Source of the DNA: a virus
Strand: one strand, 5' to 3'
Length of the DNA: 21,586 nucleotides
IMG/VR virus record: IMGVR_UViG_3300032083_002862
Span: 1-21,586 of that record
Numbering within the stretch: the first letter of the stretch is position 1; each line of letters begins with the position of its first letter. The translations under genes and the position numbers were made by a program. This document shows positions 3,960 through 17,947 of this stretch, piece by piece. Below the pieces are notes generated by a model, which saw only the letters and a program-made list of their open reading frames with translations, had not been told where the DNA came from and ran no database searches.

Positions 3960-5159
3960 TTACCTCTTCTTTAATTCCGATTTTCTTAGTACGTGGTTTA
4001 ATCCTCCAGGTTTATTTTTGTAAACACTTCTGTACTGTTCATTAATATAACCTATTGCTCTGGATATGTCAAATGTTTTTTCTAAGTTTTTTGCATTTGC
4101 TGTAAATTTGTTTCTGTCTGATATTGAATACTCAGTATTTTCTTCAAAATACCTTATATTATTATAATATTCTATAAAGTATTTATTATTATATAATATA
4201 TTAAATTTATTAATATTAATATTATTTCTTATTATATTACTCTTTATAGATTTCTTTCCACAAGTTATAATATTCTTTTCATAAGGATATTTATCTGCAA
4301 ATCTATTGTAAGAATTAAATAAATTTCTCTTAAGTATATCAACATCTAAAGTATTCGTTTGTATAAAATTCTCAGAAAATATCTGATTTATACTTGACAA
4401 GTTGTATGTTTCATGATATATTATAGATGAGGGACTGGCTAGATCTGCAACAATGATCCACGGCGAGTTTTTCATAACGGAGAAACCAAAATTATTACAA
4501 ACGTTCAAATAATATGGGAAATTTTCGCTTTCTATGAAAGTTTCCTTTAGCTCATCAACATCAATTGCTAAACCAGATAAATCTATTGCAAGTCCAGAAT
4601 GAAAAATACTGGAATTCTTGCTTCTATGCCATGCCGTATAGGTTATTGGAAAGGTTGGAGTTATTTGTTGAATATAGGCCATAAACTCTTGAAAATAAGA
4701 TTCAGCAGTCAAAGTTCTTCTTCTGTTCAAAAATATATTTTCAAAATTAATCATAACATTAGAGAAATATTCTTCATAAGCAACTTTAGGATTCTTATAT
4801 GTTCCGTATGCTTGTGGAGTTGAAAGAAAATCATCATCTGATCTTATCTTTCCTCCATTCAATGCTCTCTCAAAAGTTCTCTGGAAGTCCTTGAACTGAT
4901 CTGCCACGAAGTTCATCAGGACAACTCCGGTTGGATTTTCCCCTGAGACAACGGTCTTTAAAGAATCTTGATTGGGCACCACTACGTTTAAATTTTGGTC
5001 AACTCTTCCGTAAAGGTTCCTCTCAGCAAATAGGAAGTCAACAACGCCGACAGGTCCGAGGGAATTATTCTCCGGAAATGCTTGAATATCATACTTTCGT
5101 CTATTGACGGTAAGTACTGTTGTTGATTTTGTTGCGTTTTTTGCTTTAAATTTGGCCAT
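3960..5159 (-). CDS. Putative virion/baseplate protein, 399 aa
   Basis: The start overlaps the stop of the 1304-aa gene as TAATG, with GGAG 7 nt upstream, so it belongs to the structural operon. The middle (about residues 125-250) has a pattern I associate with phage baseplate-region proteins: a YEEYFSNVMINF helix, GLAIDLSGLAID, FPYYLNVCNNFGF and then SPWIIVADLASP. The N-terminus is basic (MAKFKAKNATKS), and the C-terminus is also basic (LRKSELKKR). Residues about 297-340 are an Asn/Ile/Tyr-rich segment encoded by an extreme AT island, with composition unlike the rest of the gene. No enzyme motif is intact. Structural role inferred from position and the recalled pattern. Confidence 0.6.
   Translation of the reverse strand: MAKFKAKNATKSTTVLTVNRRKYDIQAFPENNSLGPVGVVDFLFAERNLYGRVDQNLNVVVPNQDSLKTVVSGENPTGVVLMNFVADQFKDFQRTFERALNGGKIRSDDDFLSTPQAYGTYKNPKVAYEEYFSNVMINFENIFLNRRRTLTAESYFQEFMAYIQQITPTFPITYTAWHRSKNSSIFHSGLAIDLSGLAIDVDELKETFIESENFPYYLNVCNNFGFSVMKNSPWIIVADLASPSSIIYHETYNLSSINQIFSENFIQTNTLDVDILKRNLFNSYNRFADKYPYEKNIITCGKKSIKSNIIRNNININKFNILYNNKYFIEYYNNIRYFEENTEYSISDRNKFTANAKNLEKTFDISRAIGYINEQYRSVYKNKPGGLNHVLRKSELKKR
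4044..4072 (-). promoter_or_regulatory. Intragenic promoter-like site P8 upstream of the polymerase
   Basis: Minus strand: TTGACA (4072..4067), 17-nt spacer, TATATT (-10 at 4049..4044) within GTTATATTA, shared with the local promoter family, although the TG of the extended -10 is missing. It lies about 115 nt upstream of the polymerase start. Confidence 0.5.
4394..4422 (+). promoter_or_regulatory. Antisense promoter-like site
   Basis: Plus strand: TTGACA (4394..4399), 17-nt spacer, TATATT (4417..4422), with TGA before the -10 (extended -10). The CATGATATATTATA core differs from the CATGTTATATTATA core of P1-P6 by one base. It points against all genes of the window. No convincing plus-strand gene follows. 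Confidence 0.4.
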
Positions 5160-8100
5160 TATTCATCTCCAACAATTACTTTTTCTCCGCCAACAAGTTT
5201 GAACTTAATACCTGTGTCCACCTCTGTGTAAATACCGGTCTCCGGAGAAAACAATACTGGCCCAAGATCAGCAAATATATCATCAATGGCTGCTTCTTCG
5301 GCTTTCTTTGTTTCTTCTGCTTCTTCTCTTGCGGCTCGTTCATCAATGGAATCATATGCCGTCTGGAATCCATATCCAGTTGCGGCGAGTTGTTTATATA
5401 AATTATTTTTGATTGCGTCACAATAAGTCTTTTGTGCCGTTGTTTGCGGGGATTCATTGATAAAGCTTTTATCTATAGAAGGGACAGCCACCTCATCCCC
5501 AGATCCCAACAAGGTACTCTTTGGGTTATTATCTCCATTATATGAGAAAAGAGCCTCAACAGATGTAGTAAATTTACCGGGTCCGATTGAGGATTTTACG
5601 CTTGTCACAAGATGGTATCCACCAAATCCAAGTTTGTTTGCGATTGAGGGGTTCTCACCTCCAATTGTGGGATCAAATTCTCTTCCACCACCTAGCAATC
5701 CTCGTGGGTCAATAAACACTTCCATTCCGGGATAATATAGCGTATTACCAACCATATCCATTGAGATTTTATACACAGCAGACATCTGCATAAGTCCATC
5801 AGCACCGTGTCGGAAAAATCTTGCCTCACGAATATATTTCATATCTGTTTTTGAGAATTTGATTTTCTTAAGAATACCGCGATCTCTTCCAATCTGGTAA
5901 TGCATTATTCCATTTTTTTCATCATCAGTCTTGATTCCTTGTTTATCTGTTTTTCCTCGGGTTGTTTCTGCAAAAATTGTTATATAATTAAACAAGTCCT
6001 TTACTGGTGTTGTTATTCCTTCAATGTCGGCAGATAAAGGCAAATCACCTTTTGTGTATGCTGGCCCAACATCTAGGATGACGTCGCTGCCCAACATACT
6101 TGATATGGGACATTCTCCTCTGGTTCTCTTCCCTAAGAAACTAGTTGTCTTGAATTGTAATCTTTTGTCAAGATCATTTTTAAAACAAGACTCAAGCAAT
6201 ATCTCAGTTATAAGAAACTTGGTTAAATCTCTTATAAAATACATAACTGGATAAGATGTTCTTTCTGGTTTGATAACATTTTCTGTAAACCATTCGTTAA
6301 ACAATTCAACCGAGATTGGGATGTTTCCTAGGTTAACACTTTCAATTTGAGATTGGTCAAATGCACTAGTGTACTGGAAGGAAGATAATAAAAACTTGAA
6401 GTTTTCTGTACCAGCAACGTAAGATTCATTGATATTGCCTGTATCCGGCTCGTATAGGCATTCTAGAATAACATATAAAAGATCTGCCAAATAAAAATAA
6501 TTTATAAATTTATTATCACCGCTGTTTGATAATTTAACATCTTTGAATTTGTTTTGTTTTAAGGAAAAGTCTCTCGGATTTGATTTTTTTGCGATTGTTT
6601 CACCGGCAGCGGTTGGCTCATCGCCAACAAATATCGCAGGACTAACAATAAAACCAGTTCGCTCAAAGGACACCGCAGATTCTCCAGCAACTTGAACGTA
6701 GTTCATTAAATTATTCTCTATTAATCTCTTGATAATTGATTGGAAGGAGTTTTTTCTTAAGTTTTCTTCTATCTGCAGAAACTGACCTCTTATTGATGTT
6801 AATTCTTTTAAACTGCATGCTTTTTTCTTCAACACTTTATTATAATCTCCTCTTACTTTTGCAAGGGCTTCTCTAGCCTCGCGAGAAGCTAGCGCATCTA
6901 AAGTTGTCCCCTTTAAGGCAGTCTCAATATATGCTCTATAAGAAACGTTTATTTCAACAGAGCCGTCATCCCTTATGTCTATCTCATGATCTACCATGTT
7001 AAGATAAAATGTTTTGTTTATCTTCTGTATTGCTTTTTTAATTGCTGCATTTGGAGCAGACTCTGCTTCCCAGCCCACATCTGCTCTGATTCTGTAATAG
7101 GAGGGATCATATTGCAATGGAGATGCGGCCCCAGAACCTTTCTTGGTTCCTTTATCTCCCGCGGGTAAAATCAAGAGATCAACATAGCGATGACCACCAT
7201 TTGCTGCTTTTTTTTCTACAAAGTCTTGAAAGGATTGAAAATAAAGCTTAAGATTTGCGGTAATATCATTTTTTGCCGTGGCTGGTGTTGTTCCGTCAAA
7301 TGAAAAAGAAAACTCCTTAACGCCAAAGTCTGCTCCCCGATCAAAAACTCCAGGAGAAGATAAATTATTCACTCTGTTTGTGTTTGAATGTTTTGGAAAT
7401 TTAAATTCGTGCTCTTCCAAAACACCACCGGAAGAATAAACCTTAACTAATCTTATTTTTGGAACAAGACTTGCATGCTCACTTGGTTTTATATCTAAAA
7501 AAGATCCTATCGCTTCTTTGTTTGGTATCAATAATTTATTGATTATTGAAGATTTATCTTTATTAATGTCTAATTCATCGATCAAATACAACCTTCCCTT
7601 GTATGGTTTTTTGCTGTGAATTGGGTTTGTTTTGCCTTGGATCTGCATTGTGTTCAATTCCGCTAAATACCCAAGGCGACTCATAAGAAGACACTGTTTA
7701 AGAAACTTTTGTTTTGCTTCAATATCTTCTTCGGAAAGTTTTCTAGTATCGGTGTCATTACCGCTTATTTCTTCTTTGTTTTTTACTAGCTCTTCTGCAC
7801 TCGCAAATGAGTCATTCAATTCTTCTGCGGATAAAGTTCCACCGGTGCTTTTAAATTTTTTTAGAATATCAATTAATGCATTTGCTCTAATGTTGTTCAA
7901 TACGTGTTGAGCGAATCTGTACCCAACCTGACCTTTATCAATACTGGACTCTACTATTCCGTAGTCCTTGTTCTTTTTGTTGACCCACTTTGTTACTTCG
8001 TCTCTAAAGAGAGTCTCTAAGGCGACTTTATCAAGTCTTCCTTCGTCGCTATCTAATAAAACAAGTGCATGTGTCCTAAGTAATTCTTTTGCTATAGCCC

Positions 8101-9073
8101 AATAAGCTTGTCTTATGAAGTTTTGAAAGACTTCATCCGTACCAAAAGCAAACCACCTAGACGTTTCAAATGCCGCAGAATCAACAACTTCTAAATTCTG
8201 ATTTGCTCTTACTTCATTCATTGGTGAAACACCCTCAACCACAGTGAGACCAGTGGTATAATTAATATAACGTGCAGTGGGCTGTGTAAACCCTACATTG
8301 TTTAACTGTTCGTATTGTTCAGGTGTTAACTGAAATTGTTTTTTATCTGCCAATTCGCCTGAAAGTTTTGTCTCTGGAGCCCCTTCTTTCACTGATTCAG
8401 AAGTCAAGCCGAAAAAATATTGAAATTTCCCCTCACCTCCATAGCCATCGCTGATATAAGCTGTATTAACTTGGTATAAATCTTTAATGACTGGATCTGT
8501 TTCAAGCCATTCGTTTATCTTTAAAGATAGTTCTCTTTTAAAATCAAAAAATTTATAATCTCGCAACGCAGAGTCTAATCCATTAAAAATAACACCTTCA
8601 TTTTCATAATAATAAAAGGTTTTTTGAATTATTCTCCGAATCTTTTCTTGGTCGCTATTGGTATAAATATAATCAAAAACCCTAGAATCTGCAAGCTTTC
8701 CACCTAATTTCTGTGTCATTTGTATATATGCACCAGAATATTTAACAAAAGCACTGACAACCTTGGGAGCTATACTAGGTTTTTCTTTAGCAAAATATGA
8801 TATCATACCACCACTGGCATCAAAATCAGCAAATAAATAAGCAGCAATCTTAATCGGTGTAATTTCACCACCCAATTTTTTGCTTTGATTAACTGCGGTA
8901 TCTTCTAGATCTTGAAATATATCATCTGCAAAACTTATATCTTCTTCGTCCCAATTGTAGTCAGAAAATCCAGGACGCTCATACGCAGAGTATAGATAAA
9001 AAGCCTGTGTTGAAAGAGGTTGGGCGTCAAAGTCTGCAGCTTTAGCTTTTGCATCTTTTAAAAGTTCTCCCAT
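5159..9073 (-). CDS. Large baseplate/hub-like virion protein, 1304 aa
   Basis: This is the largest gene. It starts directly on the stop of the gp53-like gene (TAATG). Two regions look like those of large baseplate-region proteins of contractile phages. One lies in the middle (about residues 575-650), with GVKEFSFSFDGTTPATAKN followed by LKLYFQSFQDFV. The other lies near the C-terminus (about 1085-1215), with IGRDRGILKKIKFSKTDMKY, REARFF, YKISMDMVGNTLYYPGMEVF and LGFGGYHLVTSVKSSI. The extreme C-terminus is acidic with an E/A-rich helix (ERAAREEAEETKKAEEAA). No lysozyme or peptidase motif is evident. Placement after tape measure, initiator and gp53 supports a central hub or wedge role; the precise subunit is not determined. 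Confidence 0.65.
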   Translation of the reverse strand: MGELLKDAKAKAADFDAQPLSTQAFYLYSAYERPGFSDYNWDEEDISFADDIFQDLEDTAVNQSKKLGGEITPIKIAAYLFADFDASGGMISYFAKEKPSIAPKVVSAFVKYSGAYIQMTQKLGGKLADSRVFDYIYTNSDQEKIRRIIQKTFYYYENEGVIFNGLDSALRDYKFFDFKRELSLKINEWLETDPVIKDLYQVNTAYISDGYGGEGKFQYFFGLTSESVKEGAPETKLSGELADKKQFQLTPEQYEQLNNVGFTQPTARYINYTTGLTVVEGVSPMNEVRANQNLEVVDSAAFETSRWFAFGTDEVFQNFIRQAYWAIAKELLRTHALVLLDSDEGRLDKVALETLFRDEVTKWVNKKNKDYGIVESSIDKGQVGYRFAQHVLNNIRANALIDILKKFKSTGGTLSAEELNDSFASAEELVKNKEEISGNDTDTRKLSEEDIEAKQKFLKQCLLMSRLGYLAELNTMQIQGKTNPIHSKKPYKGRLYLIDELDINKDKSSIINKLLIPNKEAIGSFLDIKPSEHASLVPKIRLVKVYSSGGVLEEHEFKFPKHSNTNRVNNLSSPGVFDRGADFGVKEFSFSFDGTTPATAKNDITANLKLYFQSFQDFVEKKAANGGHRYVDLLILPAGDKGTKKGSGAASPLQYDPSYYRIRADVGWEAESAPNAAIKKAIQKINKTFYLNMVDHEIDIRDDGSVEINVSYRAYIETALKGTTLDALASREAREALAKVRGDYNKVLKKKACSLKELTSIRGQFLQIEENLRKNSFQSIIKRLIENNLMNYVQVAGESAVSFERTGFIVSPAIFVGDEPTAAGETIAKKSNPRDFSLKQNKFKDVKLSNSGDNKFINYFYLADLLYVILECLYEPDTGNINESYVAGTENFKFLLSSFQYTSAFDQSQIESVNLGNIPISVELFNEWFTENVIKPERTSYPVMYFIRDLTKFLITEILLESCFKNDLDKRLQFKTTSFLGKRTRGECPISSMLGSDVILDVGPAYTKGDLPLSADIEGITTPVKDLFNYITIFAETTRGKTDKQGIKTDDEKNGIMHYQIGRDRGILKKIKFSKTDMKYIREARFFRHGADGLMQMSAVYKISMDMVGNTLYYPGMEVFIDPRGLLGGGREFDPTIGGENPSIANKLGFGGYHLVTSVKSSIGPGKFTTSVEALFSYNGDNNPKSTLLGSGDEVAVPSIDKSFINESPQTTAQKTYCDAIKNNLYKQLAATGYGFQTAYDSIDERAAREEAEETKKAEEAAIDDIFADLGPVLFSPETGIYTEVDTGIKFKLVGGEKVIVGDE

Positions 9074-9408: not shown

Positions 9409-10077
9409 TTATCCTCCGAATGGAAACATTCCTGTACTTTTTTGGCTTGGGGTTTTCTCGTGAAGAACATTGAACGAGAAAGACAGTGAAATAACTTTTG
9501 GATAAAGCTCTCCGTTGGCTGCAAACATTCCCATTTCCAAATTTGGTTTCCAAGAGAGACCGCTTATCCACCCAAGCAGACCGAATACTTTTGGTGTTGC
9601 GTTTTCATTATCAATAAGTTCAAATTCTCGATCACCAGCCTCATTCACAAAATCCTTACTTATCTCTTCATCCCCGTCATGATCAATCCCAATATCCGAT
9701 TTAATTAAATTCGCAAATTGTATTCTAACCAATGGTGGCTTTGCCAAGATGTCTTGGTTGTTGTACACAGGGTAAACCATCTTTATTAGTTCCGAGCATC
9801 CTTCAAGATTTTTCTTTGCTTCTTCAGTTGACCCAGCCGGCAAATCAAACCCGAGAGACATTGTTCTTTTGGTGCCTTGATATGTTGCTATTGGATCCAT
9901 TCTTCCAAATACTTCTTCTGTGTTCCATTTTGCGTCAAACGTTTGAGAAAAATCGGTTAAAAAAGCAGGAAACATAAGCAAAAATTGTGTTGGAACACTC
10001 ATAATCTGTAGTTGAGCATTAGTTGCACCAACATAGCCTGATATTGTTTTTCCATCTGATAAATTAAGTGTCTTCAT
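9409..10077 (-). CDS. Tail-tube initiator / baseplate cap protein, gp48/gp54-like, 222 aa
   Basis: Residues about 38-80 contain FPAFLTDFSQTFDAKWNTEE, VFGRMDPIATYQGTKRTMSL and FDLPAGS. This reads like the segment conserved in T4-type tube-associated baseplate proteins (gp48 and gp54), in which a tube-like beta sandwich carries an RMDPIxxYxxTxR pattern. Such proteins cap the hub and start tube polymerisation. The C-terminal part (YPKVISLSFSFNVLHE) is also typical. The start overlaps the stop of the tape measure gene (TAATG), fitting coupled assembly partners. Which of the two T4 proteins it equals cannot be decided. Confidence 0.65.
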   Translation of the reverse strand: MKTLNLSDGKTISGYVGATNAQLQIMSVPTQFLLMFPAFLTDFSQTFDAKWNTEEVFGRMDPIATYQGTKRTMSLGFDLPAGSTEEAKKNLEGCSELIKMVYPVYNNQDILAKPPLVRIQFANLIKSDIGIDHDGDEEISKDFVNEAGDREFELIDNENATPKVFGLLGWISGLSWKPNLEMGMFAANGELYPKVISLSFSFNVLHEKTPSQKSTGMFPFGG

Positions 10078-12170
10078 TATGCTGCTCCGGTGTCAACTGC
10101 TTTGTTATCAACAATTGTTGCGATTTTGTCTGTAATTGTTTCATCGCCAATCTTAACTATCACATTCGGCTTAAATACGTTTTCAAAATTAGCAGCAAAT
10201 TGACTTATAGCGGTTGATGTGGTCGCTCTTGTTATGCTTTGTGTTGTTGCCCCTGTTGATATGAGAGCCATATCCCCAAGAATTGGTCTAAGGGTGGCTT
10301 GATTGTCCACAAGAACATCTGCTGTGTCAAGTATTACGTTTTTGGCGACTTTGACTTCTCCGATCTTAGCCAGTCCGGAAAATATAGAGCCCAAAGCTTG
10401 AAGCTTTTTAAGATTCAATGTTGCTATACCAATAGACAACGCAGCGAGCGCAGCAACCAACACGACTCCTATAACAGTACCTATAGTCCCAAGCGCCGGT
10501 AATGCTGCAAAAATAGCACCAGTTAGAGCAGGAATCAACCCAATAAGTCCGGGAAGGAAAGCCATCAATATATATCCAGCAGCAACAATCGCAATAATCA
10601 TAGCAGGGACGCCTCCAGCAGCTTGGCTGAGGTCTAAAAGCCCTTGTGCTGCCCATGCAATCCAATTAACCAATGGAGCGATTTGAATTGCAAAGTTCTT
10701 CATTGCCATTTCTAGTTTCTTGAAAACATCCATCGCATCTTTTAATCGGTTATTAAACTCTTCTTCAGAGGCTGCTTCTTTGAGTCCTTTACGGTAATCA
10801 TTAACAGACATACCAAATATTCGCTGAGCCTCGGCCATATCGGTTATACCAGCGGCATTTGCAACAGCCATTTGGGAATATTTATCCATATCTGCAAATG
10901 CCATACCTTGTGCTTGAACAGAACTAATAAGAGCTTCAATACGTTTTTCATCACTCATACGAACCATATCTATTGCTGACATTTGTGTTCCTAGGATAGA
11001 ATTTAACTTACCAATAGTATCGGCTGCGGTATCAAATTTGTCGAATTGGCCGCTTATTGCCATAAGTGAAGACACCTCTGTCCCAGCAGCCTTTGCTTGT
11101 GCTGCGAGGTCTGTGAATACCTTAATTGAGTCTTTTCCATAAACAGCAAGAGATTTTGAAGCAGCAACAAACCCATCCAACATTTTAGAAGCCGAGATAC
11201 CAATCTTTGTTCCGGCAACCGACAACTGTTTGGTCATTTTAGAGGCTTGTCTTGTTGAAAGTCCAAAGTTACTTGACATTATTTGCAAGGATTTTGATGC
11301 AGTTTGCCCGGAAACTCCAATTTTTTCCAATGAAGCCACGGTGAGCATTAAATCTTTTCTACCAGCTTGTGAAGTTTGCATAAAGCCAGTGAAATCGCTA
11401 AATAGAGCCTGTGCAGCCTTACCCGCATCTTCTGCTCCAATTCCGAGATTACGATAACCTCCACCAATTGCCATAATTTCTTCGGTCAAAGCACGACCAG
11501 CACCAGTTTGAGCAGCAAAAGCAGCCGTTGCCTTATCCACAGCCATTGTAAGCTTCATAGTTTGTGTAAGAACCGACATTGCCAATGCCGCACCCATTCT
11601 TTTAAAAGAAAACGTATCTTTGAATGCTTGAGCCTTTTCTTGTTTAGACATTTTTCCCATCTCGGTCATCTTGTTGATGAATCCGTTGGCCGCTCTAGAG
11701 TTTAAGCCGATCTTAACCGCTATATCTTCATAAAAACCTCTGGCTTTTTTTAGTCTTTTTTCCTGAGCAGCAGAATTCTCATCCTCTAAATCTGTTATAC
11801 CTTGAAGTTCATTTTTTCTCTGTTCATATGCATTTGATTGAGCGACTTTTAGTCTAGAAACTCTTAATAATTTTTCCTCATCAGCCGTTAAACCTTGTTG
11901 TGCTTGCTTTTCTTCAAGTTCGGTGATCTTTGCGGAAGCAGCAGTGCTAGCTGCTTGTACTTTCTCAAGTTCTTTTCGTAGTTTAATTTGTGCTTGATAC
12001 ATTTGGTTATACTCACCAAGCGCCTTGTTTTGCGCTACAGTCACTTCCAATTCTTTTATTCGACCATCTATGACCTTGGGATCTGATGATGTCGCTTCTT
12101 TATTTTCTTCATACTTTGCCAGTTTTTCTTCTAAAGCTTTAATTTTGTCTTCTAATTCTTCTTGAGTCAT
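10077..12170 (-). CDS. Tail tape measure protein, 697 aa
   Basis: Residues 1-150 are charged heptad-like helix (EELEDKIKALEEKLAKYEE and later KITELEEKQAQQ) predicted to form coiled coil. The middle is Ala/Gly/Ser-rich with repeated helical segments. A long hydrophobic stretch at about residues 515-585 (AMIIAIVAAGYILMAF ... GTVIGVVLVAALAAL) would cross the host membrane. This order and the position between tube genes and the tube initiator identify a tape measure. If about 0.15 nm per residue applies, the tail would be near 100 nm (inference). The start follows the upstream stop by 4 bases, with GAGGA about 9 nt before the ATG. No peptidoglycan hydrolase motif is visible. Confidence 0.85.
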   Translation of the reverse strand: MTQEELEDKIKALEEKLAKYEENKEATSSDPKVIDGRIKELEVTVAQNKALGEYNQMYQAQIKLRKELEKVQAASTAASAKITELEEKQAQQGLTADEEKLLRVSRLKVAQSNAYEQRKNELQGITDLEDENSAAQEKRLKKARGFYEDIAVKIGLNSRAANGFINKMTEMGKMSKQEKAQAFKDTFSFKRMGAALAMSVLTQTMKLTMAVDKATAAFAAQTGAGRALTEEIMAIGGGYRNLGIGAEDAGKAAQALFSDFTGFMQTSQAGRKDLMLTVASLEKIGVSGQTASKSLQIMSSNFGLSTRQASKMTKQLSVAGTKIGISASKMLDGFVAASKSLAVYGKDSIKVFTDLAAQAKAAGTEVSSLMAISGQFDKFDTAADTIGKLNSILGTQMSAIDMVRMSDEKRIEALISSVQAQGMAFADMDKYSQMAVANAAGITDMAEAQRIFGMSVNDYRKGLKEAASEEEFNNRLKDAMDVFKKLEMAMKNFAIQIAPLVNWIAWAAQGLLDLSQAAGGVPAMIIAIVAAGYILMAFLPGLIGLIPALTGAIFAALPALGTIGTVIGVVLVAALAALSIGIATLNLKKLQALGSIFSGLAKIGEVKVAKNVILDTADVLVDNQATLRPILGDMALISTGATTQSITRATTSTAISQFAANFENVFKPNVIVKIGDETITDKIATIVDNKAVDTGAA

Positions 12171-12174
12171 TCAT

Positions 12175-12534
12175 TTAATCCTCGTCTTTGAAAGGCCACT
12201 TAAGACCGGTTGTTCTTTCAAAATTAGCCACTTCGTTTCTTAGTTCTTCTCTTTTAGCCATAGTTTGCGGATGCCCTTCTCCGAACTCTTTGAATGCATC
12301 AAGGAATTCTTTTTCCGCAGAGATTGCAACAGCATATGCCTTAACATCTTGATACTTTCCAGTGATCTTGAATTTTGTTGTGGTTTGCTCTTCTTCATTG
12401 AGATTTGCAACAATATTAACGTCTTTTCCGTACATATATTTGAGAATGGTCTTTGTCCAAGATCCCAACATTTCATCCCAAGTCTCGTTTAGCGTTACTT
12501 TCGCCCTTTCTAAGTCAATAACAAGCATATACAT
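12175..12534 (-). CDS. Conserved tail-operon protein, 119 aa, unknown
   Basis: A mixed-charge soluble protein. The N-terminal half carries TWDEMLGSWTKTILKYMYGKD and then VANLNEEEQTTTKFKITGKY, followed by DVKAYAVAISAEKEFLDAF. It resembles small proteins lying beside gp26-like genes in T4-type marine phages, but no function is known to me. Position directly before the tape measure suggests a tape-measure or tail-assembly chaperone. AAGGAG lies 4 nt before the ATG at 12534 and 10 nt before a second in-frame ATG at 12528, so the start may be two codons later. It is the first gene after the terminator at 12561..12582. Confidence 0.65.
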   Translation of the reverse strand: MYMLVIDLERAKVTLNETWDEMLGSWTKTILKYMYGKDVNIVANLNEEEQTTTKFKITGKYQDVKAYAVAISAEKEFLDAFKEFGEGHPQTMAKREELRNEVANFERTTGLKWPFKDED

Positions 12535-12560: not shown

Positions 12561-12582
12561 AAAAAAATGCCCGTTAGGGCAT
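12561..12582 (-). terminator. Rho-independent terminator before the tape measure block
   Basis: On the minus strand ATGCCC-TAAC-GGGCAT forms a 6-bp stem (12582..12567) with a 4-nt loop, and its end runs straight into seven T (12567..12561). The stop TGA of the small ORF overlaps the first base of the stem. This is the clearest intrinsic terminator of the window. Confidence 0.8.
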
Positions 12583-12833
12583 CATCTTCTTTTCTTGTTT
12601 GCTTTTTCCATTTCTTTCTTTTCATCTTCAAACTGCTTTCGCATTCTCTCGCAAAACCAATTACGAAGACCAATTGGGAGATTATATATCTCCGTGAAAG
12701 ACCATCCACCAAAATGCTTCATTATAAATATTTGTTCATAAAGAGCTTCGGAGTATTTATCGGTCAGGCCAAAAAAAGTCCGTATTAAACGGAACCTCCA
12801 TTTCTTGCGAATATCCACAAGAACCGCATTCAA
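12582..12833 (-). CDS. Small tail-assembly-like ORF without a usable start (frameshift product?)
   Basis: The recognisable part, from FFGLTDKYSEALYEQIF through HFGGWSFTEIYNLPIGLRNWF to a Lys/Glu-rich C-terminal helix, resembles small proteins found next to gp26-like genes in T4-type phages. The frame has no ATG until residue 39, inside that conserved part. The limit at 12833 is only a TTG without a ribosome binding site, within the coding part of the gp26-like gene. The frame is +1 relative to that gene, and both share a T7 run at 12777..12771. It may therefore be translated as a 3' extension of the gp26-like protein (about 341 aa fused). Initiation at a rare codon after GGAGG (12801..12797) is the alternative. 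Ends right at the terminator. Confidence 0.6.
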   Translation of the reverse strand: MNAVLVDIRKKWRFRLIRTFFGLTDKYSEALYEQIFIMKHFGGWSFTEIYNLPIGLRNWFCERMRKQFEDEKKEMEKANKKRR

Positions 12834-13608
12834 AATTGTTTGTAATCTTCACATCGGGTGAAGCCACCTTGTAACATGCTTTGAGGTGTCTACTGTCTAA
12901 AGTCGGCATATTATCAACATATTTACCTATAATTGACTTATCACTGTGACCTTCAATTGAGACGATCATAATTTTGAACTGATCTGTTAGGGTTGTCTCG
13001 TTCATCTTTCTTTTCTTCTTATCTGCTGTGAGTTTAGCCAAATACTGTTCATCCTTGCCATCCAACAACTTAAAGACAATATTGAAGTTTGAATAGGGCA
13101 TCTTACAAGTAAAACTCCCATTGTCTAATTTTTGCATTGAAAGAGTTTCATCTACGGATGACTCATGTATTTCTTGTTGTGTGAGATCAAAATCAAATTG
13201 CGTTCTAGTTCCGCAAGAAGGACATCCTATTTGTGTTTTATAGTTTGCCCCATATCCAGAGATACGTGCAGCAATAACCAAAGCATTTCTGTCTCCGACC
13301 AATAAATCTTGCGCTTTGATTGATTTATTTATAATAAGTGAATCAATCATTCTTTCAATTGCAATTCCTTTTTTAAGGAGAGTTTGTGAAGATAGAATAT
13401 CTTCCTCTTTTGCTGTCATAAATCTCATCTCAATAACTTCTTGTCCATGAAGTGGATGTCCTTCAGGATAGTTTCCTTTTGATGGTAGGTCAACAAATTC
13501 TGTTGGTGCAACAAAGCTTAATGGATCAAAAGCTTTTTCTACCGGTTGTTGTGGTGCCTCTGTTGGCTCCGGAGTGTGTCCTCCGAGTCTATCTTTATTT
13601 CTGCTCAT
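12757..13608 (-). CDS. gp26-like baseplate hub/tail assembly protein with zinc motif, 283 aa
   Basis: After a Pro/Glu-rich N-terminus, residues 36-115 read PTEFVDLPSKGNYPEGHPLHG, then EIRFMTAKEEDIL-type helices and SLIINKSIKAQDLLVGDRNALVIAARISGYG. This is a pattern of the gp26-like hub protein family of T4-type phages. Two CxxC pairs, Cys129/Cys132 and Cys261/Cys264, can bind one zinc ion. It ends FFWPDR. Its place between tube and tape measure genes is where other myophages keep tail assembly chaperones made by frameshifting. The start has GAGGT 4 nt before the ATG. Family call is by eye; the exact role (hub part or chaperone) is open. Confidence 0.65.
   Translation of the reverse strand: MSRNKDRLGGHTPEPTEAPQQPVEKAFDPLSFVAPTEFVDLPSKGNYPEGHPLHGQEVIEMRFMTAKEEDILSSQTLLKKGIAIERMIDSLIINKSIKAQDLLVGDRNALVIAARISGYGANYKTQIGCPSCGTRTQFDFDLTQQEIHESSVDETLSMQKLDNGSFTCKMPYSNFNIVFKLLDGKDEQYLAKLTADKKKRKMNETTLTDQFKIMIVSIEGHSDKSIIGKYVDNMPTLDSRHLKACYKVASPDVKITNNFECGSCGYSQEMEVPFNTDFFWPDR
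12771..12777 (-). promoter_or_regulatory. Candidate ribosomal slippery site (T7)
   Basis: In the gp26-like frame the mRNA reads GAC UUU UUU UGG, four codons before the stop. Skipping one U (+1) or slipping back two (-2) enters the downstream small ORF precisely at FGLTDKY. A GGAGG lies about 17 nt upstream and could pair with 16S rRNA as a stimulator. Confidence 0.45.
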
Positions 13609-13617
13609 TTATACCTC

Positions 13618-14109
13618 TTAGTTTAATGTTGCTGAGTCATATGCAACTGTGATTGTTATTTCAAGTAGATCATCTGAGGAGTAATCAAGTTCTCCAAATT
13701 TAACTGACTTTACAAATGGGTTAATAAGTTCCCATGTTTCATGGACCTCTCCGGCTGCATCTAGTTGTTCTATTAAAACATTTGTGACATTCGTGTTCGT
13801 ATGCTTGGGTTTCTTCATTATCCCATCTGGAGTTTCCCCTCCAAAGACATAACCAGAATTTAAAAGATTACCGTAATAATTTTTACCCCTGCCTTGGTCA
13901 ACACTATCAACAATAACAATATCGATATCGTTCCATGTAACAATACCAGGATACTTTATCTTATGGTTGATAAGTTGATACTCAGAAACACTAACGTCAA
14001 AAGCTGGCCTTGTTACGCTTTTCGCATACCAAAGCACATCTCCTGCAAATGTTACTTGAAATCTATACTTTCGTAGTGGTTCAAGTGCTTTATCAGACCA
14101 AAAAGACAT
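13618..14109 (-). CDS. Tail tube protein paralogue 2 (gp19-like), 163 aa
   Basis: It begins MSFWSDKALEPLRKYRFQV and continues with LWYAKSVTRPAFDVSVSEYQLINHKIKYPGIVTWNDIDIVIVD. The same layout and many of the same residues occur in the preceding gene. The C-terminus VKSVKFGELDYSSDDLLEITITVAYDSATL is the terminal beta hairpin of gp19-like tail tubes. The paralogue is 20 residues shorter than the first copy, mainly in the C-terminal tail and the central loop. It lies 10 bases after the first tube gene, and its ribosome binding site is part of a hairpin with the stop codon of that gene. One copy probably builds the bulk of the tube; the other may form a terminal ring or be an alternative subunit. 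Confidence 0.8.
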   Translation of the reverse strand: MSFWSDKALEPLRKYRFQVTFAGDVLWYAKSVTRPAFDVSVSEYQLINHKIKYPGIVTWNDIDIVIVDSVDQGRGKNYYGNLLNSGYVFGGETPDGIMKKPKHTNTNVTNVLIEQLDAAGEVHETWELINPFVKSVKFGELDYSSDDLLEITITVAYDSATLN

Positions 14110-14113
14110 TTAT

Positions 14114-14127
14114 GCTCCCCTAGGAGC
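14114..14127 (-). promoter_or_regulatory. Hairpin holding the SD of the second tube gene
   Basis: In the mRNA GCUCC-UAGG-GGAGC forms a 5-bp G/C-rich stem. Its 5' arm is made of the last codons of the first tube gene, its loop contains that gene's UAG stop, and its 3' arm is the GGAG that serves the ATG at 14109. Ribosomes ending on the first gene would open it, coupling the two genes. Confidence 0.5.
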
Positions 14128-14671
14128 TAGTGGGAACAAATTGGTCTGGGCCTGTGTTAACACAAGTAGCCCAATCGTAACGGAAAGTCATTTCAACTGT
14201 TCTCAAGTCGTCCGAGGAATAATCTAGATCGCCATATTTAGCAGATTTAATGAAAGAATTATTGAGTGTCCATATTTCTATAGGTACTCCACTTGCACTT
14301 AAGATAGAAATAACCACATCTCCCACAGCCCCGGTGGACTTTGTCTTAGAGAGAGTTGACTTATCACTGGCATTAGCAGGAGGTCTGCCGGGTATTACAT
14401 ACCCAGAATCAATAATTAATTGATTTGTCAATTGAACAGCATCAACAGAAATTGGATCAACCAAAGTCAAAGACACCTCGTTCCATGAAACACGCCCAGG
14501 AAAATAATATTTATTATCCAAATGATTGTGCTCTACTTCTGAGACATCAAAAGCAGGTGTGGTCACTGTTTTTGCCCACCAGAGAACAGAGTTTTCTCCC
14601 AAGCCTGTAATTTCTACTTGGAACCTAAAGTTTCTTTTAGGTTCTACATCGTTTGTTGACCAAAATGCCAT
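14120..14671 (-). CDS. Tail tube protein paralogue 1 (gp19-like), 183 aa
   Basis: It begins MAFWSTNDVEPKRNFRFQVEITGL, with LWWAKTVTTPAFDVSEVEHNHL, then YYFPGRVSWNEVSLTLVDP, and ends KSAKYGDLDYSSDDLRTVEMTFRYDWATC plus a 12-residue tail. This is the layout of T4 gp19-like tail tubes, which stack as hexameric rings inside the sheath. It comes directly after the sheath gene as in most contractile-tail phages. GGAG lies 9 nt before the ATG. It is clearly a paralogue of the next gene; the longer C-terminal tail and central loop (PGRPPANASDKSTLSK) are the main differences. Confidence 0.85.
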   Translation of the reverse strand: MAFWSTNDVEPKRNFRFQVEITGLGENSVLWWAKTVTTPAFDVSEVEHNHLDNKYYFPGRVSWNEVSLTLVDPISVDAVQLTNQLIIDSGYVIPGRPPANASDKSTLSKTKSTGAVGDVVISILSASGVPIEIWTLNNSFIKSAKYGDLDYSSDDLRTVEMTFRYDWATCVNTGPDQFVPTSS

Positions 14672-14704: not shown

Positions 14705-17700
14705 TTAGAATTCAATTCCGGAACGGGTAATTGAGAAATCGATAGCAATAAACTCTATTGCCTTTGCTGGTTTAATGAAAACCTTAGCATACATAATGTT
14801 GCGATCCTGGTAATCAGGAGTGGTTGTTGTCTCATCAAGAACAAGCTTGTACTCTGAAATACCGAATCTTGACTTAGCATCCGCAAGGATTGGGTTTGCT
14901 GACGCTTTGAATCGGTTCCAAGTAGCATTTACATTCTGATCAAAAAGAACAGTTCTTGCAACTGCACCAACGCGGCTCTTGAGATAAATCATCAAACGAC
15001 GAACGTTGATGCGATCAAGAGCGGAAGGGGTTTGTTGAAGAGTCTTTTGACCGAATACAACTGTTCCTTCACCCGGAAAGTTAGCAATTGGGTTAATATT
15101 AACTTGATAGAGATCATCACGATCTGCTTTGTTAAGATTCTCAGTTGCTTGAGCTACTCTTGGTCCGTTATTTCCACCGAGTCTGCGGATACCACCGCGA
15201 TTAAATCCAGCAGGAGCGAACCAAGGTGCACCAGATGCAGCGTCACTTTGAGCAAGAACTCCAACACCAGCGACAGAAGAAGGCACAACCAATCCAGAAT
15301 CAAGACCACCAAGTCTGACCGGTGGATAGTATGTCGCAGCATAGCTTGAATTATAATCAGCTGTGTTAGCATCTGAGATTACTCCGTTGACTGTAGGAAG
15401 AACTTGTGTTCCACTGTTTTCGTGTGCAGCAAGATAGCCACCATCAAAATCTACTATAGCTAGAGCATCTCCTCTATCGCCGGTATTCTCTATCAATTCT
15501 CTCTGAAGAGATGTATTGGTAAGTCCGGGCATTGAAACAACATCGTATTGAACAATCTCTGAATCTGATACAAGATCAATGACCTTGTTAACAGAGTAAT
15601 AAGCATAAGAACTAGTTTCATTTTTCCCGCTAAGAGCGATTGCACTTGAGAACGGATCAACCAAAGTGATATCAACACCATCAAACCCACCAAAGAATGG
15701 AGCTCTGAATTGTCTAACTTTCTGTGTTTCTAGAAGGTTTTTACTTCCACTGTTTGAAGTAACAGCTGTTTGAGCAGCGTGAGATCCGGAAGAGTAATAA
15801 TACTTACCATTTGTATCTTCAATGATTTCATCTAGAGAGAAAACAAACGCAGTCTCTGTTGAGGTACCATTGCTAGCAAAAATATCCAAACCTGCAGGAA
15901 GAGCACGAACGATATCTTTATAATCTTTTCCTTCAAAGATAGCAGAAGTGTTCGCATCATTATCGCGAGCGTGTCTAACACCAAAGTAATCTTCTTTTCT
16001 ATAGTTTCCACCATTCTTTGTTCCGGTCTCTGTGAGGCGGAATGTTGGGAATTTGTAAGAAGAAGTAACGTTTGATAAGTGGGTGTTAATAAACGCGTTT
16101 GCTGCAGTGTGACCAATCGCAAGTGAGCTAGACTTAGAATCGTCAACAAAAGCGTGAACAGTGTCGTCTGTATCTGTACCAGCAGTTGGAGTGGGTAGAG
16201 CTTGAACAGAACTGCCATCAACTTCAGTACCGTATGTTACAGTCCAATAAGGCCCTGTCTCATCAGCAGTAAAAGTTACTACACCAGCGCCACCTGTCAC
16301 AGCAGAGTAACCGGGAATCTTGTTCAAGAGTACGATAACTCTAGTCGCAGTGAGCGTACTGTTTGTCGCATCAGATTGTTGATTGACATTTGCCGTCTGA
16401 CTAGTAAATGCAGTGTCTGTTGAACCACCAGCATCATTAACAAAGTTGATCACAAAGTCTCCTAATGCTGGATGTGTAATTGTTAGTTTATCACCATTTT
16501 GCATGCCGGCAGTATAAGTAATCGTAGCTGTTGATTTAACACCAGCATTTGTACCATCTCCGTGCAATTGTGGCCCGGTTGATTCTCTTTTAAGAGTAAA
16601 CCCAACTGGACGAGCAGGTCCGTAGAAACCAAACGGAAGAGCAAAAGTATCAGAAAGACCAGCTTTCCAAGCATCAGACATTTCAACATAAACATAGTTA
16701 GAAACATTTGGATAATCACCCTTAAGGATATACTTGTCGTTTGTTTGATCCCAAGTTTGGAATTGAGTACCAATTCTTCTACCGATGAAATCTTCTGAAT
16801 TTTCATTCAAGTTACATCCGGTAAAAGTTTCTTCAATAAGACCGGATTCAAGATTTTGAATTCCAACTGTGAATGTAGAGTCTGGGCTTGTAACTGTTCC
16901 AAGTTTAAGATCTTGAATAACAGCAGCATAATTTCTTTGAAACCACTCTCCATCATGAAGAGATATAAGGCGGAACAATTTGTCTGCATTAAGCAAATCA
17001 TATGAAGCATATCCGCTTGTTGGGTTTGGATTTCTATTGACGAACCAACCAGCCTTAGCCGCTGTTGCTTCTCTTCTCTGGTCTGCCCAGTAAGCAGAAC
17101 CACTAGCCAACGGAAGAAGCACTCCGACTTGCTTTCCAGCACTAGAAGATGTATCTGTTACAATCTCTTTGACATTTGTTTCGTGGCTCTCACCAAGGAA
17201 ATATTTCTCAGTGGTGGCTTGGTTTGTAGAAGTTAATTTCTGTGGGTTACAATTCAAAACATTGCGAATGAAACCGTCTTGGACATTGTCATTCAAGTGA
17301 AAAGTGAATGATTCACTTGTGGCAGGTCCAGTGTGAACTTCAAGCTTGAATGTGTTTGGTTGTCCTGATGTACTATCTGAATTAATCATAACACCAGCAG
17401 AGGCTGTTGTTGTACTTGTTGTTCCAGCGATTGTTCCACTGAGAGCAAGTGCAGCTCCAGATGTATAGATAATAGCAGCCAATGTACCGTTTGCTGCTCC
17501 GGTAGAAGCAGAAGGTGCTACAAAGAGACCGTATGCAAGTTTATTGCTAGCAACTGTTGTACTTACAGCGTGATCTAGAGTCCAACCAGCTTTTACATAA
17601 GAGCCACCTTGCTTAGAAGATGCTTGATCTTCTCCAAGAAGCCTTACGAATGTAACAGGTGAAGTTTCAGATGCAAGCCATGCTTGAGCAGCATAGAGTC

Positions 17701-17947
17701 CGTAAGTTGGAAGTTTTGTGTTTCCATCTCTCCAGATATCTGTTGCGTTGCTTTTGCCACTTTGTGGTCTTCCAAAAACTTCATACAACTCGTTCAAGTT
17801 ATTTATCTTGACGGGCTTCATAGCAGGTCCTGCTATAGATTGTCCAATAATCAAAGCACCGTCATCGGTTACTTCGTTTGGCACTTGGCTTTCATCAACT
17901 TCACGTAGAAGGATGTCAGGTGATATAAAATCAAATTTACTAGGCAT
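14705..17947 (-). CDS. Tail sheath protein, gp18-like, unusually long (1080 aa)
   Basis: The N-terminus (DILLREVDESQVPNEV, GALIIGQSIAGPAMKPVKI, LNELYEVFG) and C-terminus (ALDRINVRRLMIYLKS at about 985, then YAKVFIKPAKAIEFIAIDFS and TRSGIEF) are typical of contractile tail sheaths, whose ends link neighbouring subunits. T4 gp18 has 659 residues; here about 400 more are present. Two Thr/Ser/Gly-rich, beta-type stretches look inserted: about 145-245, and about 470-590 (DKLTITHPALGDFVINF ... GVVTFTADETGPYWTVTYG). These probably decorate the outside of the sheath (inference). GGAG lies 8 nt before the ATG. A 61-base gap precedes the gene, the longest in the operon. Confidence 0.9.
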   Translation of the reverse strand: MPSKFDFISPDILLREVDESQVPNEVTDDGALIIGQSIAGPAMKPVKINNLNELYEVFGRPQSGKSNATDIWRDGNTKLPTYGLYAAQAWLASETSPVTFVRLLGEDQASSKQGGSYVKAGWTLDHAVSTTVASNKLAYGLFVAPSASTGAANGTLAAIIYTSGAALALSGTIAGTTSTTTASAGVMINSDSTSGQPNTFKLEVHTGPATSESFTFHLNDNVQDGFIRNVLNCNPQKLTSTNQATTEKYFLGESHETNVKEIVTDTSSSAGKQVGVLLPLASGSAYWADQRREATAAKAGWFVNRNPNPTSGYASYDLLNADKLFRLISLHDGEWFQRNYAAVIQDLKLGTVTSPDSTFTVGIQNLESGLIEETFTGCNLNENSEDFIGRRIGTQFQTWDQTNDKYILKGDYPNVSNYVYVEMSDAWKAGLSDTFALPFGFYGPARPVGFTLKRESTGPQLHGDGTNAGVKSTATITYTAGMQNGDKLTITHPALGDFVINFVNDAGGSTDTAFTSQTANVNQQSDATNSTLTATRVIVLLNKIPGYSAVTGGAGVVTFTADETGPYWTVTYGTEVDGSSVQALPTPTAGTDTDDTVHAFVDDSKSSSLAIGHTAANAFINTHLSNVTSSYKFPTFRLTETGTKNGGNYRKEDYFGVRHARDNDANTSAIFEGKDYKDIVRALPAGLDIFASNGTSTETAFVFSLDEIIEDTNGKYYYSSGSHAAQTAVTSNSGSKNLLETQKVRQFRAPFFGGFDGVDITLVDPFSSAIALSGKNETSSYAYYSVNKVIDLVSDSEIVQYDVVSMPGLTNTSLQRELIENTGDRGDALAIVDFDGGYLAAHENSGTQVLPTVNGVISDANTADYNSSYAATYYPPVRLGGLDSGLVVPSSVAGVGVLAQSDAASGAPWFAPAGFNRGGIRRLGGNNGPRVAQATENLNKADRDDLYQVNINPIANFPGEGTVVFGQKTLQQTPSALDRINVRRLMIYLKSRVGAVARTVLFDQNVNATWNRFKASANPILADAKSRFGISEYKLVLDETTTTPDYQDRNIMYAKVFIKPAKAIEFIAIDFSITRSGIEF

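Follow-up and report, generated by a model that had tools for sequence, protein, structure and literature searches.

A putative +1 frameshift site links the gp26-like gene of T4-superfamily marine myophages to a second coding frame at a likely tail chaperone locus

How is a small frame in a tail gene cluster translated when no ATG precedes its conserved part? This question arises in the window, a viral contig of 21.6 kb (21,586 nucleotides) with its tail genes, like all its features named below, encoded on the minus strand. The original prediction was a programmed shift that joins the small frame to the preceding gp26-like gene. Along the minus strand, a putative sheath gene (14705-17947; a 1080-aa ORF) and two tail tube paralogues in tandem (14120-14671 and 13618-14109) are followed by the gp26-like gene (12757-13608; 283 aa). 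The second tube gene, which is gp19-like (PF06841, E 1.7e-7; phrog_4542), lies directly upstream of it. Then come the small frame (12582-12770), a gene for a 119-aa protein without clear family (12175-12534) and a putative tape measure gene (10077-12170), which is named for its position and length and had no family match of note. The small frame had been placed between the tube and tape measure genes; the position is right, but the ORF at 12175-12534 also lies in that gap. A location between the genes for the major tail protein and the tape measure protein is that of G/GT chaperones, and it is found here, the tape measure gene being putative. For a 1304-aa protein encoded at 5159-9073, neither Pfam nor PHROG offered a notable match.

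The gp26-like protein, the proposed short chaperone form (TAC-N, gpG-like), matched PF12322 (T4_baseplate, gp26/gp51) with 58.3 bits against a curated 24.5 (E 1.2e-15), and phrog_150 with E 1.2e-18. NCBIfam gave no match above cut-off among four proteins tested. The zinc motif attributed to this protein was confirmed by four cysteines, in two CxxC pairs, that are invariant in 38 aligned sequences including that of the window.

The 3' end of the gp26-like gene reads GAC TTT TTT TGG CCT GAC CGA TAA, the stop codon of the unshifted frame occupying 12757-12759. A run of seven T (TTT TTT T; 12771-12777) is present as predicted. Its last T is also the first base of TGG (12769-12771), the fourth codon ahead of the stop. 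The small ORF lies in the +1 frame of the gp26-like gene, also as predicted, and not in the -1 frame of the classic heptamer arrangement X XXY YYZ. Reading shifted by +1 begins GLTDKYSEALYEQ... and continues for 62 codons; with its stop, this stretch runs from 12770 to 12582. The proposed shift would take place at the second TTT with TGG in the A site, and the frame that follows translates as GLTDKYSEAL... We call this 62-residue product the T domain (T-like, C-terminal); it was delimited by the inventory of frames and starts, the codon-position pattern and hhalign. As the T frame adds 62 codons after a +1 shift, translation from 13608 to 12582 gives a fusion (TAC-NC, gpGT-like) of 341 aa, the length originally proposed. 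The small ORF had been given as 12582-12833; its end at 12582 stands, but the part gained by the shift starts at 12770 and not at 12833. The frame opens 78 nt upstream of the junction, and before the T domain it offers just two candidate starts, a TTG (12833) and a GTG (12818), neither of which has a Shine-Dalgarno sequence within 20 nt upstream. The first ATG of the frame is codon 17 of the T domain (12722), within the conserved part. The claimed lack of an ATG and of a ribosome site at the alternative start was thus correct.

We collected relatives from IMG/VR in two sets. A peptide-pattern search with the gp26-like protein, with no pattern over the slippery site, yielded the first set (best 80 of 346), of which 77 were used because L030, L031 and L033 end short of the junction; protein identity in this set goes down to 44%. 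A profile search yielded the second set (best 80 of 599 relatives), of which 78 were used, two loci being already in the first. One protein pattern of the second set contains FFW, so that loci with TGG were to some extent favoured there, and the pattern QEMEVPFN of the first set spans the residues of an upstream GGAGG stretch, so the Glu itself is partly selected. Synonymous codon choice at both places was not selected by the search, because the patterns are degenerate. In five loci (L053, L076, L245, L248 and L271) the T ORF is truncated by the contig end.

The motif YTT TGG was present in all 77 loci of the first set (best 80 of 346) and all 78 of the second (best 80 of 599), that is, in 155/155; its loss was looked for in these relatives and none was found. 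The first-set sites (best 80 of 346) were TTTTTTTGGCCT in 65/77 loci, TTT CTT TGG CCT in four, TTC TTT TGG CCT in four, and in four more the base after TGG was changed. Interrupted runs in the second set (best 80 of 599) were TTC TTT TGG (2/78) and TTT CTT TGG (3/78). Codon choice at this site is strict. Elsewhere in the 77 first-set genes (best 80 of 346), Phe is encoded by TTT in 608 of 842 cases (72%), whereas all 73 Phe codons directly before TGG are TTT and the remaining four codons are CTT. Clustering at 70% identity left 24 clusters, with TTT in 22/22 Phe codons before TGG and CTT in the other two (p ~0.001 if the clusters are independent).

An additional T in a homopolymer, where assemblies err, could in principle feign a second frame, and a sequencing error or pseudogene was therefore weighed. 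The frame relation is the same in 155 contigs (best of 346 and 599), 13 of which have interrupted T runs, and extends to two isolates, Microcystis phage Mel-JY01 with the site TTT TTT TGG and Flavobacterium phage immuto with TTT CTT TGG. These relatives and isolates refute a broken or misread gene, to which we give practically no credence. In the immuto record (L083:4701-4943), the annotated 36-aa ORF QQO92150.1 comprises the last part of the T frame only, from an inner ATG. Nine of nine selected contigs of 131-194 kb, which may be incomplete, carried one gp26-like ORF and one adjoining T-domain match; in two of them the gp26-like ORF matched as two pieces in one frame. A search of bacterial and archaeal genomes gave 20 pattern matches and no relatives, and plasmids searched with the Mel-JY01 protein gave no match. 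Some phages depart from this pattern. In GXN1, LIS04, SP-15 and BRock (L085-L087, L093), a T-like ORF follows gp26 in the +1 frame without YTT TGG; candidate sites there are TTT C and NCC CGA. LR756508 has TTT CTA with an ATG four codons before, and in LR756511 an ATG sits on the stop.

The small ORF might instead be a gene of its own, started within gp26 or by termination-reinitiation. A conserved canonical start was looked for in the relatives and not found. From the last upstream stop to the junction, the T frame had no ATG, GTG or TTG in 7/77 loci of the first set (best 80 of 346) and 19/78 of the second (best 80 of 599). An ordinary start upstream of the T domain is therefore excluded in these 26/155 loci, some of which do carry the rare starts CTG, ATT or ATA. 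Three loci (L059, L061 and L075) have their first ATG, GTG or TTG at domain index 30, 53 and 39, respectively, beyond the conserved start. On the other side, a T-frame start with a loosely defined Shine-Dalgarno sequence was found upstream of the junction in 25/77 and 13/78 loci, 38/155 altogether (best of 346 and 599). In 11 and 5 of these loci, respectively (16/155; best of 346 and 599), such a start is a TTG located 18 nt upstream of the junction; local initiation is possible there because of the Shine-Dalgarno-like sequence that precedes it. Mel-JY01 and immuto likewise have a TTG six codons before the junction. Phages with a -1-frame arrangement, described below, also offer some support for a separate gene, since KVP40, 121Q and others are annotated with one whose start overlaps the gp26 stop. 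Set against the start-less loci, these observations leave independent initiation very unlikely as the general explanation.

Whether translated by a shift or otherwise, the frame carries a coding signature. For 75 of the 77 first-set loci (best 80 of 346), we compared a stretch of 120 nt that begins 15 nt inside the T frame. Differences fell on T-frame codon positions 1, 2 and 3 in the numbers 2712, 912 and 9897 (544 pairs, which are related and not independent). Stop codons were absent from the T frame in all 75 loci and present in each other frame in 75/75 (best 80 of 346). By this pattern the small frame is plainly protein-coding. A second ORF in another frame without a conserved start of its own, preceded by a conserved shift site (YTT TGG, 155/155), is characteristic of G/GT chaperone genes. 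The invariant site, the 26/155 loci without an upstream start and the coding signature strongly support, on comparative grounds, the prediction of a frameshift from the gp26-like gene into the small ORF.

The direction had been left as +1 or -2, and the +1 alternative fits better. A +1 slip re-pairs YUU with UUU in every variant found. For a -2 shift, the P-site tRNA would have to retreat by two bases within the T run, and the junction would gain one Phe (NTDFFFGLTDK, where a +1 shift gives NTDFFGLTDK). Runs of seven or eight T permit this in 69/77 first-set (best 80 of 346) and 73/78 second-set loci (best 80 of 599). Backward shifts tend to prefer a far-upstream Shine-Dalgarno-like element, and the GGAGG sequence considered below does lie far upstream. 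In the TTC TTT TGG variants (4/77 and 2/78, or 6/155; best of 346 and 599), however, tRNA-Phe would meet UCU after a -2 slip, with a mismatch at the middle base, while its +1 pairing is perfect. The CTT TGG variants do not discriminate between the two. A shift of -2 is used by phage Mu according to the 2016 Atkins review, yet at the present site we consider it unlikely.

The T run could also act in transcription, the RNA polymerase slipping on it and so editing the mRNA. Seven T form a homopolymer, although efficient transcriptional slippage usually requires longer runs. Moreover, the longest run is only three or four T in 13/155 loci (best of 346 and 599), and both frames are kept there, which makes this explanation highly improbable. 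The variants TTC TTT TGG and TTT CTT TGG thus favour a +1 shift over both a -2 shift and transcriptional slippage.

A second conserved element lies upstream of the site. In the window, the Shine-Dalgarno-like sequence GGAGG (12795-12799) stands 17 nt before the slippery codons. Exactly this spacing was found in 68/77 first-set loci (best 80 of 346), and GGAGG occurs within the same stretch in 63/78 second-set loci (best 80 of 599). The Glu codon within it is GAG in 73/73 first-set cases (21/21 clusters), against a background of 38% GAG in these genes (best 80 of 346); among Glu codons before GT, GAG accounts for 12/34. In the second set (best 80 of 599), the Glu codon of this stretch is GAG in 65/65 loci, and 13 loci have another residue. 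GGAGG is kept in 24 of the 26 start-less loci, and in L059, L073 and L076 a T-frame stop follows immediately behind it. We conclude that it is not simply a start signal of the small ORF, which also speaks against an independent gene. Stimulators of this kind stand 3 nt from the shift site in RF2 and 10 nt in dnaX; at 17 nt, GGAGG is further away, a spacing not known from any stimulator. On these alignments it is a candidate stimulator. Folding of 23 of the 24 cluster representatives by RNAalifold gave -0.61 kcal/mol and four pairs near the site, too little for us to claim a conserved RNA stimulator.

The gp26 family also occurs with a -1 arrangement. We assembled 94 loci from cyanophages, KVP40 and jumbo phages: 79 from IMG/VR (best 80 of 597; L162 ends before the junction) and 15 hand-picked isolates (L089-L092, L094-L096 and L098-L177 are among the loci). 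T TTT TTN was found in register near the gp26 end, followed by a -1-frame ORF, in 91/94 (including the best 80 of 597), the exceptions being L178, L183 and L185. The heptamers in these 91 loci were TTTTTTC (50), TTTTTTT (28), TTTTTTA (12) and TTTTTTG (1). From the upstream stop to codon 15, no start was present in 33 of the 89 -1-frame ORFs of at least 40 residues (including the best 80 of 597). The T ORF is truncated by the contig end in L138 and L142. Several records of this set annotate the T part as a separate gene or omit it.

Comparison of 30 +1-frame with 35 -1-frame T domains by hhalign, with the divergent jumbo-phage ORFs of 121Q, Atu_ph07 and PA5oct left out of the alignment, gave a probability of 96.5% (E 9e-10). 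The -1-frame (cyanophage) T set matched the single C-terminus of T4 gp51 at 85% (E 6e-6), and the small ORF of KVP40 is described in its record as resembling 40 C-terminal residues of T4 gp51. For T4 gp26 and gp51 themselves, the PF12322 match (E 8.8e-64 and 3.9e-52, respectively) covers almost all of the length that the two share. By these matches, gp26 and gp51 are paralogues, gp51 being a gp26-like protein with a T-like C-terminus (L097:4303-5729). T4 gp26 ends GAG TTC TTT GAG TTA CTA TAA with gene 25 next, and has neither a slippery site nor a T domain. At the sequence level, then, both parts of the window's proposed fusion are homologous to their counterparts in the -1-frame and two-gene versions. 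The T domain also resembles DUF6760 (PF20546), a family from contractile injection systems. The window's T domain scored 20.5 bits against a curated 27 and so fell below the cut-off; the likeness is weak and in register, 21/30 members matching at E up to 1 (best 1.1e-4). DUF6760 had no match in the Mel-JY01 record, nor did the control. A profile comparison of P2 E' with the T alignment was not significant.

Structure models gave a hint of chaperone function. The AlphaFold2 model of the gp26-like protein (pLDDT 84.5) aligned best in VIA-align with 3fgx (Z 6.9; residues 31-129) and second with 2ob9, the tail assembly chaperone of HK97 (Z 5.5, rmsd 4.4, 86 residues; residues 23-119). Foldseek gave E 1.1 against 2ob9 and no PDB match at E <= 0.001. 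With Z under 8 and Foldseek alone not significant, the resemblance of the modelled fold to the TAC-N fold of HK97 gp13 amounts to a hint. For the T domain, helices are predicted at residues 4-21, 25-29 and 33-61 (pLDDT 79); its model had two rows only against the PDB, at E 9 and 9.7, and a search by sequence found no solved structure for T4 gp51. In lambda, as the 2016 Atkins review states, the partner of gpG is the tape measure protein and that of the gpGT T part is the tube protein. By analogy, the gp26-like short form and the T domain may have the same roles.

Taken together, these results make it very probable that the locus is a G/GT-type tail chaperone locus of a T4-superfamily marine myophage, which would yield a short form of 283 aa and, by +1 programmed frameshifting, a 341-aa fusion. 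Most ribosomes would terminate at the gp26 stop codon and release the short form. In a minority, tRNA-Phe (or tRNA-Leu) would be on YUU in the P site with UGG awaiting decoding in the A site; the P-site tRNA would slip +1 onto UUU, and GGC CUG would be decoded next. The shifted ribosomes would produce the long form with its extra helical domain of 62 aa. If the lambda analogy applies, the short form would serve as a coat on the tape measure protein, with the long form bringing in subunits of the tail tube.

Part of this picture is established. The principle that G/GT tail chaperones arise by frameshifting is known, and the 2016 Atkins review describes G-T frameshifting as widely conserved except in T4, the shift being -1, -2 or +1 depending on the phage. 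According to PMC10885494, frameshifting is replaced in some T4-like phages by two genes, a short one and a long fused one, and PMC12846349 (2025) treats poly-T -1 signals in T4-like TAC-N genes as known. In the 2010 T4 tail review, gp26 and gp51 appear among the hub assembly chaperones, gp51 being described as essential but of unknown function. From these statements and the homologies given above, genes 26 and 51 would be the TAC-N and TAC-NC genes of T4. The chaperone identity itself is not new. Vladimirov, Gautam and Davidson (2022, Virology 566:9-15) reportedly identified the T4-like tail assembly chaperone genes, and secondary sources credit them with it. The original prediction rightly named a gp26-like partner and found it surprising; given that report and the paralogy of T4 gp26 and gp51, the partner is less of a surprise.

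We found no description of a +1 shift in the gp26 family in the open-access literature, outside which most subscription papers lie. What is new here is the proposed +1 mode with UGG, a sense codon, in the A site, together with the upstream GGAGG that is kept by codon choice. At the level of comparative genomics we regard the finding as real. It suggests that, besides the -1 and two-gene versions, the T4 superfamily has one in which a +1 shift can yield the tail chaperones from a single gene. Many genomes have small ORFs after gp26 that are labelled 'hypothetical' or 'gp51-like'; these are probably the tail ends of fusions and not genes of their own, and many records would need a joined CDS annotation. 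The locus would also provide a natural, highly conserved +1 site with UGG as the A-site codon, usable for reporter work, and, 17 nt away, a second conserved element without ready explanation. A broader reading, to which we give an even chance, is that the tail chaperones of a large clade of marine phages depend on an undescribed bacterial +1 cassette, GGAGG-N17-YUU_YUU_UGG, which acts at a sense codon and has its Shine-Dalgarno-like stimulator far upstream. Sister lineages would reach the same two-domain product by -1, by +1 or by gene duplication (T4), evolution keeping both forms and not the mechanism.

As in lambda (gpG/gpGT), P2 (gpE/gpE+E') and SPP1 (gp17.5/17.5*), the proposed chaperone gene stands just before the tape measure gene and would give a short and a long form; unlike here, those chaperones belong to another sequence family and shift by -1. 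In shift direction the locus is likened to the tail chaperone of HSTV-2, for which the 2016 review considers +1 very likely. The SPP1 tube protein gp17.1* arises at CCC UAA by a +1 P-site slip, as proposed here, in an unrelated gene. In RF2 the P-site tRNA slips +1 at CUU UGA (PMC10885494), a step that the CTT TGG variant would share; the genes are unrelated, and the A site holds a stop codon in RF2 whereas here it holds the sense codon UGG, the fourth ahead of the stop. Closest is the version of cyanophages, KVP40 and jumbo phages, with homologous G and T parts and the shift at the same place in the gene, which differs in shifting -1 at a T TTT TTN heptamer where the window family has +1 at YTT TGG. 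T4 gp26 and gp51 likewise belong to PF12322, with homology also between the T domains and the end of gp51; T4, however, relies on a pair of genes and its gp26 end lacks a site, whereas the window phage would use one gene and a shift.
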